From: Catellatospora coxensis
GTDB lineage: Bacteria > Actinomycetota > Actinomycetes > Mycobacteriales > Micromonosporaceae
Reading direction: 5' to 3'
NCBI RefSeq assembly: GCF_016862635.1
Contig: NZ_BONI01000048.1
Span: 1-64,000, forward strand
Length of the DNA: 64,000 nucleotides
Below, piece by piece: positions 43,300-46,696 of this stretch. The number at the start of each line of letters is the position of its first letter. Position 1 is the first letter of the stretch. Under the pieces are notes generated by a model. That model had not been told where the DNA came from and ran no database searches. It worked only from the letters and a program-made list of their open reading frames with translations. A program made the translations under genes and the position numbers.

Positions 43300-44256
43300 A
43301 TGACGACCCTTGCCGACACCATCACCGTCGAGCAGCTGCGCGACGACGTCACGTCGCTGGCCGGGCGGTGCCTGTGCGACCCGGTGACCGAGCTGTTCGG
43401 GCCGCTGCTGGAGGTCCAGGAGCGCGTCTTCAACCGCCTGGAGAACGACCCCGAACCCGACCACGCGCACGAGCTGTACCTGCTCGCGGCGCTGGTGTCC
43501 GGGATGCTCGCCAAGGCCCACCACGACCTCGACCGCGAGCACCAGGCGATGTCGCTGGCCCGGATGGCGTACGTGTGCGCCGACAACATCGGCCACCCCG
43601 GGCTGCGGGCGTGGAGCCGGGGCCTGCAGAGCCTGCTGGCGTACTCGGCGGGCCGGCCGCAGGAGGCCGCCGCGTTCGCCGACTGCGGCGCGCGCATCGC
43701 CGACGGGCAGAACGGCTCGGTGACCTCGTGGCTGGCCTGCTCGCAGGCCCGCGCGCAGGCGCGGCTCGGCGCGGCCGAACCGGCCCGGCTGGCCCTGGTG
43801 CGCGCCGACGACATGCGTGAACACCACGTGCACGACGACCTCGACGCGATCGGCGGGATCTTCTGGTTCGCCCCGCCCCGCCAGCACCACTACGCCGCCG
43901 ACGCGTACGCGTGCCTGCCCGGCCAGTCCGAGCGCGCGGTGCACGAGGCCACCCGGTCGATCGCCCTGTACGCGGCCGCCGCGCCCGAGCAGCGCTCCTT
44001 CGGCGACGAGGCGGGCGCGCGCTGCGTGCTCGCGCTGACCCGGGTGTGGGCCGGCGACGCGGCGGCGGCCCGGGACACCCTCGGGCCGGTGCTGCGCCTG
44101 GACCTGCCCAGGCGTACCGCCGAGGTGATGGCGGGGGTGTCCCGGGTCGGCGACGCGCTGCGCGACTCCCGCTTCACCGACGTGCCCGAGGCCCGCGACC
44201 TGCGTGCCCAGATCGAGTGGTTCGCCCAGCGCCCCGCGTCCGCACTGGCGAGCTGA
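43300..44256 (+). CDS. TPR-like helical protein, regulator-derived, no DNA-binding domain
   Basis: A 318-aa all-helical cytoplasmic protein. The pattern of helix pairs (HELYLLAALVSGMLAKAHHD, QAMSLARMAYVCADNIGHPG, LRAWSRGLQSLLAYSAGRPQ, ARAQARLGAAEPARLALVRA) is that of the C-terminal TPR sensor of actinomycete XRE regulators, but no helix-turn-helix precedes it; the start has a GAGAGGCGAC ribosome site. It may be an adaptor or a peptide sensor. It follows the POT transporter by 12 nt, which could link it to peptide uptake. Family not recognised with certainty. Confidence 0.7.
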   Translation: MTTLADTITVEQLRDDVTSLAGRCLCDPVTELFGPLLEVQERVFNRLENDPEPDHAHELYLLAALVSGMLAKAHHDLDREHQAMSLARMAYVCADNIGHPGLRAWSRGLQSLLAYSAGRPQEAAAFADCGARIADGQNGSVTSWLACSQARAQARLGAAEPARLALVRADDMREHHVHDDLDAIGGIFWFAPPRQHHYAADAYACLPGQSERAVHEATRSIALYAAAAPEQRSFGDEAGARCVLALTRVWAGDAAAARDTLGPVLRLDLPRRTAEVMAGVSRVGDALRDSRFTDVPEARDLRAQIEWFAQRPASALAS

Positions 44257-44334: not shown

Positions 44335-45597
44335 TCAGGCGCCGTCGGGCAGTGCTGCGGCCATCCGGGTGACCGCGGCGTGGGCCTGGGCGACGATCTC
44401 CGCGTCGGTGCGGTCGTGATGGTGCAGGACGGCCGCGGCGTCGCCGGCGGCCAGCAGCGCGAGCACCGGCTGCCCGAGGCCGCCGGTCAGGTCGGCCCAC
44501 TCGCACCAGGTGGCGGCGTCCTCACCCCACCACAGGTAACCCCCAGGGGAGATCGGCCAGAACCGCTCCGGATACCGCAGCAGCACCTTCTCCGCCCGGC
44601 CGGTGCCGATCCGGGCCAGCGCCGTCCGGTGCCCGGCCGGCAGGTCCACGGCCAGGTCCGCGAGCACCGCCAGGGGCAGCGCGAGCACGGCCCGCTCGGC
44701 GCGCAGCGCGCCCCACGGACCGGACACGGTCACGCCGTCGCCGTCGTGGCGCACCTCGGTCACCGGGTGGTCGAGGGCGATGTCGAGCCCGGCCGCCAGC
44801 CGCGCCGGTACCACGCCCAGGCCACCGGGCAGCCAGCGGTCGCCCTCGCCGACCCCGGGCTCGCCGAACGTGCCCCGGGCCGAGGCCAGCCGCAGGTCCA
44901 GCCCGGATTCCAGGACCACCCCGGCCTCGACGGCGTACGCCAGCACGCGGCGCGCCGGCTCGTCGAGCGTGGCGGCGTGGGCGGCGATCACGTCGCCGAG
45001 CGGCCGGTCCGCGGTCCCGGTCAGCACGTGCGCGGCTGCCGCCAGCGCGTCCAGGGCCTCCGGCGCGCCGTGGACCGGCCCGGACGCCGACAGGGTCAGC
45101 GGGTTCGTGAAGTCCGTCGCGACGGTCGGCAGCCCCCACCCGCGGGCCAGGGCGGCCAGGCTGTTGCCGGCGTACTGCTGCAGCCACGCCGCGCCCAGGT
45201 CGGCGGCGACACCGCCCAGGTCCACCGTGTGCACCCGCCCGCCGACCCGCCCCCGGGCCTCCACCACCCGCACCCGGCGGCCGTGCCGGTGCAGCTCCCG
45301 GGCCGCGGCCAGGCCCGCGACGCCCGCGCCGACGACCGTGACCTGCTCGCCGGGACGGCCCGCGCCGAGCAGGTGCCCGGCGGCGGTCAGGCCCGACTCG
45401 TACGCGCCGTGCGCCATCGCCGGCCGGGCCGGGTGCACGCCCTCCCCGGCCAGCACGAGGCGGTCCGACACGGGCGCTGCCAACCGGGCCCGGTCCGCGC
45501 CGGTCCCGCCGACCAGCAGGCCCGTCCACGCGCCGCGCGACCACGGGTCGGCGCTCCAGCGCGACACCGCCCACGCGACCGGCCGGGGCGCGCGCAC
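44335..45597 (-). CDS. Circularly permuted flavin amine-oxidase-like protein
   Basis: A 420-aa FAD protein with its family motifs in swapped order. Residues 8-77 contain AVSRWSADPWSRGAW, LVLAGEGVHPARPAMAHGAY and ESGLTAAGHLL. In monoamine oxidases this block closes the FAD site at the C-terminus. An 8-residue linker leads to the dinucleotide motif VTVVGAGVAGLAAARELHRH (about 86-105) and VVEARGRVGGRVHT, normally the N-terminus. The chain ends at DAEIVAQAHAAVTRMAAALP, just where the missing block would follow in a normal protein. GTG at 45597, one base after the preceding stop (TGATGTG), so translation is coupled. Because both FAD-binding blocks are present and adjacent in the fold, activity is plausible. 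Substrate unknown. Confidence 0.85.
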   Translation of the reverse strand: MRAPRPVAWAVSRWSADPWSRGAWTGLLVGGTGADRARLAAPVSDRLVLAGEGVHPARPAMAHGAYESGLTAAGHLLGAGRPGEQVTVVGAGVAGLAAARELHRHGRRVRVVEARGRVGGRVHTVDLGGVAADLGAAWLQQYAGNSLAALARGWGLPTVATDFTNPLTLSASGPVHGAPEALDALAAAAHVLTGTADRPLGDVIAAHAATLDEPARRVLAYAVEAGVVLESGLDLRLASARGTFGEPGVGEGDRWLPGGLGVVPARLAAGLDIALDHPVTEVRHDGDGVTVSGPWGALRAERAVLALPLAVLADLAVDLPAGHRTALARIGTGRAEKVLLRYPERFWPISPGGYLWWGEDAATWCEWADLTGGLGQPVLALLAAGDAAAVLHHHDRTDAEIVAQAHAAVTRMAAALPDGA

Positions 45598-45598
45598 A

Positions 45599-46696
45599 TC
45601 AGCCCAGCGTCAGCCAGGTGATGCCGAGTTCCCGCAACCGGGCATGCTCGGCGGCCGACAGCGGTGTCCGCCCGGTGGCGCGGCGCAGCAGCCCGGCCCG
45701 GTCCACGCCCAGCTCCTCGGCTGCCCGCGGCGCGGCCAGCCCGAACAGCAGGCCTTCGACGACCCCGGCGGCCTGCGCGGTCAGCCACGGCGCGACGCCG
45801 AGCGCGTCGGCCAGGTCCAGGCCGTGCACGGCCAGTTCCACGACCCGGGTGACCTGGAAGTCGGTCAGCCGCATCGGGTCGCCGTGGCGGGTGGTGACCA
45901 GCCGCGACCCCTGCGTCCCGGCGACCCGGGCCACGACCTGCGCCGACATCTGCTCGAACCAGTCGATCAGCTCCGCCGGGGTGCGCTGCTCGGCGTACTC
46001 CTGCGCGATGTCGACCCGCTGCCGGTCGGTCGCGGGGCTGAACCGCTCGTCGGGGGAGTAGTAGCGGGCCGTGTCGACCGGCGGGCCCGCCGGCGCGGGC
46101 GCGTCGAGCATCGCCAGGGTCCGCGACAGCGCGATCGCGGCGTGCGCGAACTCGCCGCGTACCGTCCACGGCGGGCAGCACGTCGGCCGGTCCAGGTCCG
46201 CGACCGGGGCCGCGCGCAGCGCCGCGACCAGCGCGGCCGACTCGGCGGCGACCGCCGCGCCGACCGTGGCCTCGTCCGGGACCAGCGACACGACCCGGAA
46301 CCGCTCGGCGACAGCGACGGTGTCGTCGTCGACCGTGAAGTCCGGCCGCCCGAGGTAGTCGCGCAGCTGCTGCGAGTGCCAGAAGTTCTCATGCGCGGCC
46401 CGCCAGCCCGCGACGCTGGTGTAGCCCTCGCCCTCGTCGATCGCGTGGGCGAGGTCGATCTCGCCGAGCGGCACCTGCCGCACCTCGGTGACCTCCAGGA
46501 CCGCGACCGGCTGCCCGCCGGAGTCGATCAGCGCCGACCGGTGGCCGGGTAACGGCAGCGGCTCGCCGTCGAGCTCGTACCCGATGAGCAGCCCCGTCGT
46601 GGCGGTCTTGCTCCCGTCGAGCACGGCGGCGACGAGCTTGTCCCGCAGCGGCCCGGGGAAAGCCAGCTCGTAATCACTCAACGCGTCGTAGACCAC
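45599..46696 (-). CDS. ASCH domain fused to maleylpyruvate-isomerase-like (DinB-fold) domain
   Basis: A 365-aa two-domain protein. Residues 1-140 form an ASCH domain (FPGPLRDKLVAAVLDGSKTA, TGLLIGYELDGEPLPLPGHR, VAGWRAAHENFWHSQQL), a fold thought to bind RNA or nucleotides. Residues about 145-365 form a mycothiol-dependent maleylpyruvate isomerase N-terminal (DinB four-helix) domain (DRPTCCPPWTVRGEFAHAAI, TRVVELAVHGLDLADALGV). The fusion is unusual. Start GTG at 46696. Coupled to the permuted amine oxidase downstream. The role of the pair is unknown; thiol or nucleotide chemistry may be involved. Confidence 0.8.
   Translation of the reverse strand: MVYDALSDYELAFPGPLRDKLVAAVLDGSKTATTGLLIGYELDGEPLPLPGHRSALIDSGGQPVAVLEVTEVRQVPLGEIDLAHAIDEGEGYTSVAGWRAAHENFWHSQQLRDYLGRPDFTVDDDTVAVAERFRVVSLVPDEATVGAAVAAESAALVAALRAAPVADLDRPTCCPPWTVRGEFAHAAIALSRTLAMLDAPAPAGPPVDTARYYSPDERFSPATDRQRVDIAQEYAEQRTPAELIDWFEQMSAQVVARVAGTQGSRLVTTRHGDPMRLTDFQVTRVVELAVHGLDLADALGVAPWLTAQAAGVVEGLLFGLAAPRAAEELGVDRAGLLRRATGRTPLSAAEHARLRELGITWLTLG

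Follow-up and report, generated by a model that had tools for sequence, protein, structure and literature searches.

The window analysed here, a stretch of 64,000 nucleotides from Catellatospora coxensis, carries a gene whose product is very probably a genuine, naturally circularly permuted flavin-containing amine oxidoreductase (PF01593), complete and predicted to be functional. This protein, hereafter the window protein, holds all the segments of the normal-order profile once but in rotated order, model positions 345-420 coming before positions 2-343. A true circular permutation had been claimed by an earlier sequence-only reading of this DNA, and the rotated profile match, 47 permuted relatives, a near-constant cut, purifying selection and a single confident fold all bear this out. 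Flavin amine oxidases include the monoamine oxidases, the polyamine oxidases and LSD1.

Order of the segments in the window protein

The gene lies on the reverse strand at 44335..45597, as do all its parts given below, and its open frame of 420 amino acids begins with GTG. A stop codon stands in frame four codons 5' of this start, so that nothing precedes the block with which the protein begins. This block, residues 2-77 (45367..45594), corresponds by profile to model positions 345-420, aligns to the C-termini of LSD1 and LSD2 and is normally the C-terminal FAD/active-site segment of flavin amine oxidases. Its sequence includes SRWSADPWSRGAW...LAGEG...HGAYESG, with SRWSADPW at residues 12-19, LAGEG at 49-53 and HGAYESG at 63-69. 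A new linker, residues 78-84 (45346..45366), delimited by the cut-point analysis of 62 open reading frames, leads from the old C-end to the old N-end. The core, residues 85-414 or model 2-343 (read from 45345 to 44356, span 44356..45345), comprises by profile the Rossmann FAD domain, the substrate domain and the last helix; the nucleotide-binding motif GxGxxG (here GAGVAG) was placed at residues 90-95 (45313..45330) by motif position and conservation. Six residues follow the core, which leaves no space for a block at the C-terminus. The sequence-only reading had put the block at the N-terminal side and GxGxxG at 90-95, and the motifs were located there; that the C-terminus ends short of the block was likewise correct.

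Three profiles, covering the block, the core and the entire protein (421 positions for the last), were derived from 15 normal-order relatives. The block profile matches residues 11-77 (E 4.3e-20), and no second block match was found elsewhere in the window protein. The whole profile matches it in two places, residues 2-77 with model 345-420 (iE 4.6e-21) and residues 85-414 with model 2-343 (iE 4.1e-67); the cut falls cleanly between model 343 and 345, and model 2-420 is covered in two rotated pieces with nothing missing or doubled. When rotated in silico at residue 81, the protein gives one continuous match over model 2-420 of 284 bits, against 273 bits in two pieces for the native order. Control rotations at residues 200 and 300 score 276 and 260 bits, still in two pieces each, and it is therefore continuity, not score, that marks the permutation.

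The Pfam profile Amino_oxidase (PF01593) matches the window protein above its gathering score (E 3.3e-47) in three stretches and is matched by 26 of the 26 members of set A3. Two to three stretches are also needed in four permuted relatives, the best of them ending at profile 361-378 of 443, and the normal-order relative L008 gives a single stretch, 1-443; order-sensitive profiles score rotated proteins as split matches. With phmmer against the PDB, query 3-74 aligns to LSD2 residues 700-771, and query 74-155 and 255-359 to LSD2 327-409 and 528-637, i.e., in rotated order, and LSD1 behaves alike. The order typical of the superfamily, Rossmann unit first and block last, is not that of the window protein: the C-terminal segment is present, but at the N-terminus. 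As judged from these alignments, it is a topological variant of the PF01593 superfamily, not an ordinary member.

The gene upstream (45599..46696, reverse strand) encodes a protein in which an ASCH domain is fused to a mycothiol-dependent maleylpyruvate isomerase N domain. The stop codon of this gene ends at 45599 and the permuted gene starts at 45597, leaving a gap of 1 nt. The permuted gene had been described as intact and translationally coupled to this neighbour; the open frame upholds the first statement, and the 1-nt gap suggests a possible coupling.

Recurrence and conservation of the rotated order

A search of 41 genomes gave colinear full-length matches in at least 6 of 11 genomes of the genus (its own included), in at least one of 14 genomes of other genera of the family and, among the matches listed, in none of 16 genomes beyond the family. 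In a scan of a genome collection based on peptide patterns from the window protein's own clade, other permuted clades being unsampled, 28 of 29 loci were permuted (L032 and L033 being one strain); they came from Catellatospora, Actinoplanes, Winogradskya, Kineosporia, Catenuloplanes, Nucisporomicrobium, Symbioplanes and a MAG. By our count among the matches listed, at least 26 of 394 genomes of the class have one match that runs from position 11 or less to 351 or more; 22 of them were confirmed by profile, the other four being G176, G206, G419 and G242. The phylum search gave matches in 8 of 296 genomes (our count), of which seven were confirmed, including three beyond the class (G513, G602 and G561), and the remaining one, G578, matched in two pieces. 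Genome G105 shows a match spanning 10 to 417 with an internal stop, yet its locus L103 is of normal order by profile, so that a wide span alone is no proof of permutation. The genome search for the same order proposed by the sequence-only reading was positive within and beyond the class, and its view of an intact gene, not an artefact of two fragments, agrees with the open frame and with this recurrence.

Classification by profile of 94 open reading frames gave 63 permuted, 31 in normal order and none with two blocks; no two-block intermediate was found among these. The 94 include repeat fetches of the same places (the window, for example, three times), and removal of duplicates left 48 permuted rows, i.e., the window protein and 47 distinct relatives. 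In Catellatospora tritici the permuted gene region is found on two scaffolds (L032 and L033; also L062) with the same 69% match, which reflects either a real duplication or an assembly duplicate. In Actinoplanes liguriensis (L052:4965-6470, forward strand) the block is without its SRW...GSW stretch, and the locus holds a run of unknown bases.

Across 62 permuted open reading frames (L097, classed as permuted by profile, is absent from these rows), the block begins in most cases at model 340-353, the core usually stops at 335-349 and the linker counts 6-14 residues; nearly all of them are cut in the same loop. Exceptions are the damaged L052 and L055, and L007 and L050, the same gene, with a core match ending at 317; in L064, L066 and L068 the block starts at 331-337 and the computed core end is not meaningful. 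Pairwise dN/dS within Catellatospora (15 pairs) ranges from 0.03 to 0.59 for the block and from 0.24 to 0.52 for the core. Both are under purifying selection, although core values near 0.5 mean only moderate constraint. GxGxxG, the ribose-binding acid and GGR are motifs of the family: GxGxxG, Glu113, GGR and Gly51-Glu52 are conserved in all 48 permuted rows, and the nucleotide-binding motifs and Gly51-Glu52 in 15 of 15 normal rows. Lys337 is found in all 15 normal rows and in 41 of the 48 permuted ones, being replaced by Arg, Leu or Thr in the other seven, none of which belongs to clade A; some clade-C members have Thr or Leu at this position.

The clades also differ in export signals, as detected with loose regular expressions. 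A twin-arginine motif precedes the block in 10/10 rows of clade B, 7/7 of clade C, 1/2 of clade D and 1/29 of clade A, and a lipobox-like motif is found in 2/10, 7/7, 1/2 and 0/29 rows, respectively. Members of clade A, mostly devoid of a signal, are probably cytosolic; those of clade C (L072, L075, L079, L082, L085, L089 and L090) resemble Tat-exported lipoproteins by motif. Constructs of Tat-signal enzymes along with cytochromes c are described in a study of the superfamily (PMC12224317). The difference in export signals between clades also raises the question, as a matter of speculation, whether an N-terminus moved off the Rossmann strand aids cofactor loading before Tat export.

The neighbourhood of the permuted gene is not conserved across genera. 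Among 29 regions compared, the ASCH/maleylpyruvate isomerase N neighbour adjoins it in four, all from Catellatospora, and the neighbours in other genera include NMT1/THI5-like binding proteins (5 of 29 regions), a cutinase, a GH42 galactosidase, LacI regulators and CobW, each named from one representative. As the neighbourhood varies among genera, no pathway backs a substrate, and it was dropped as a functional clue. It is worth noting that the window also encodes, at 43300-44256 on the forward strand, an NsdA-family TPR-like regulator just under the NCBIfam cut-off (70 versus 75 bits). Spread by phage or plasmid was considered and rejected: the window protein has no phage match, two of its three matching plasmid records were examined (Haloarcula pelagica and Nostoc) and both are of normal order, as is a Synechocystis plasmid match found with L065.

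Predicted fold, putative chemistry and origin

An AlphaFold model of the window protein was computed with 26 permuted sequences aligned; L052 (partial block and a run of N), L055 (a run of N), L033 (the second copy of the same strain) and L059 (normal order) were left out. The structure prediction called for by the sequence-only reading gave one compact fold with a pLDDT of 88.8 and a pTM of 0.89. By our arithmetic, the core alone (340/420) would have a ceiling of about 0.81, so that the block is confidently placed in the model. A sequential Foldseek search with this model found LSD2 first (E 3.8e-22; TM 0.69, normalised by query length), followed by polyamine oxidases and LSD1. The core modelled alone reached a pLDDT of 57.8 and a pTM of 0.43; this collapse fits an integral block but is only suggestive, the comparison being confounded by 10 aligned sequences against 26.

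Using an offset of 171 that we derived from the alignment, W14, W24 (45526..45528, an aromatic position), E52, M61 and K337 (44587..44589) align with LSD1 Trp751, Tyr761, Glu801, Thr810 and Lys661. FAD-region residues of LSD1 named in a review include Trp751, Tyr761, Ala809 and Lys661 (PMC10821146), and a lysine next to flavin N5 is nearly universal in the superfamily, according to the superfamily study (PMC12224317). Homology to LSD1 Trp751, Tyr761, Glu801 and Thr810, together with the confidence of the model, suggests that residues 1-80 touch FAD. The old C-terminus would have been joined to the old N-terminus via the seven-residue linker, and new ends would have opened in the loop that connects the substrate domain's last helix to the strand preceding the [ST]xW block; a likely route may be duplication or fusion, then loss of the outer parts. 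The FAD-binding parts, block and Rossmann unit, would then stand together at the front with the substrate domain after them. FAD would bind in the two-part nucleotide pocket, an amine, the putative substrate class, would be oxidised by hydride transfer to FAD beside Lys337, and the reduced FAD may be reoxidised by O2 or another acceptor.

That an assembly error, a frameshift or pseudogene fragments produced this order is barely conceivable: no support for it was found in our analyses, and it was ruled out by the same order in assemblies of many species, by open frames and by purifying selection on the gene. The rotated order, which recurs in many related soil bacteria, appears to be a stable form under selection and not a sequencing error. 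Another possibility is a permuted flavoprotein whose reaction is not amine oxidation but another C-N or C-C oxidation, or which has a non-enzymatic role. This reading would fit a gene neighbourhood without pathway context and the active site of clade A, in which Trp24 (found in no other of the 63 rows) and Met61 are present in 29 of 29 rows, the same positions being mostly Tyr/Phe and Thr or Cys elsewhere. We nevertheless hold it unlikely, given the invariance of Lys337 in all 26 A3 proteins and given that amine oxidases and histone demethylases are the best matches among solved structures; the residues specific to clade A suggest a distinct substrate scope.

As for the origin, normal order is found in one plasmid gene each of a haloarchaeon, Synechocystis and Nostoc and, by motif, in a monoamine-oxidase-like outgroup. 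This argues for normal order as the ancestral state. The rotated chain was most likely derived within Actinomycetota. The first tree was built without duplicates and gapped loci (L001, L031, L032, L033, L050, L052, L055, L061 and L062) and loci in which both segments could not be mapped, with eight normal-order rows added; for the second, L059, L042, L064, L077 and L013 were removed and 11 rows added, L094, L095, L102 and L103 being absent. The best trees place the permuted rows in several groups with four changes of order, and a single change was obtained in 0 of 200 bootstrap trees in either build, as would be expected had the permutation arisen several times independently at the same loop. 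This remains doubtful to us, since one permuted clade is not rejected by the AU test (p 0.094 for the first tree and 0.223 for the second), the well-supported branches of both trees force only one change and the cut is nearly identical in all clades. We are just as hesitant about the loop as a permutation hot spot, where several independent events in Actinomycetota would have given parallel cytosolic, Tat-exported and lipoprotein families. Alternatively, the order could come from a segment swap, in which an ancestor lost the block at its C-terminus and acquired another, donated by a different amine oxidase, at its N-terminus. Between clades, the agreement of block with core identities is only weak to moderate (Spearman 0.27 for 1,460 pairs; Mantel r 0.56 with p 0.012 on clade means), and Actinoplanes couchii has a distant normal-order paralogue directly upstream of the permuted gene (L035:3373-4920, forward strand), but we find such a swap quite improbable: it need not give a cut as clean as that of the window protein, and over all pairs block and core identities correlate with a Pearson coefficient of 0.93, a value dominated by within-clade pairs. 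Tandem-duplication remnants beside permuted genes were also looked for and rejected: among 94 loci with a block match (106 searched), a second block piece was present only in L035, where it is the normal-order paralogue, and in L103, a normal-order locus.

Comparison with known systems

This conserved and selected permuted lineage offers a natural experiment on the origin of rearrangements, with both orders in one phylum and even in one genome (G008), and it would show that a discontinuous FAD domain can become contiguous. Among the literature matches listed, in a search mostly outside subscription journals, we found no report of natural permutation in the flavin amine-oxidase superfamily. A survey of partial domains counts 54 instances as circular permutations and has no occurrence of "amine oxidase" (PMC4432964), nor does "permut" occur in the main text of the superfamily study (PMC12224317).

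The best sequence and fold matches of the window protein are LSD1 and LSD2 (PDB 4gu0, 7xe3 and 9dbp), with which it shares the FAD motifs, the lysine and the [ST]RWxxDPW block; in these the alignments place the block at the C-terminus, unlike in the window protein, and their substrate is a histone, which would not be expected here. LSD proteins further carry extra SWIRM/tower parts. Polyamine/spermine oxidases and monoamine oxidases (PDB 1b37, 7oxl and 1gos), all of normal order, belong to the same superfamily by profile, the polyamine oxidase by fold as well. Among the 60 of 169 PDB matches listed, no best stretch crosses the junction, all start at profile 78 or later and none is a permuted solved relative. 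The normal-order actinobacterial relatives L008, L060, L074 and L091 have 32-37% core identity with the window protein but keep the Rossmann unit first and the block last. By eye, L074 has a Tat-like N-terminus, and L060 (L060:1484-3493, reverse strand), which is G008's paralogue of normal order, carries at its C-terminus a long extension resembling a cyclic-nucleotide-binding domain. Outside the superfamily, naturally permuted DNA/RNA methyltransferases (PMC1282579) are a case in which a Rossmann-like cofactor site is preserved through natural permutation, although they use SAM, not FAD, and belong to an unrelated family. The LucY (MurB) permutants (PMC4408115) are an FAD protein reorganised by circular permutation, but engineered and of a different family.
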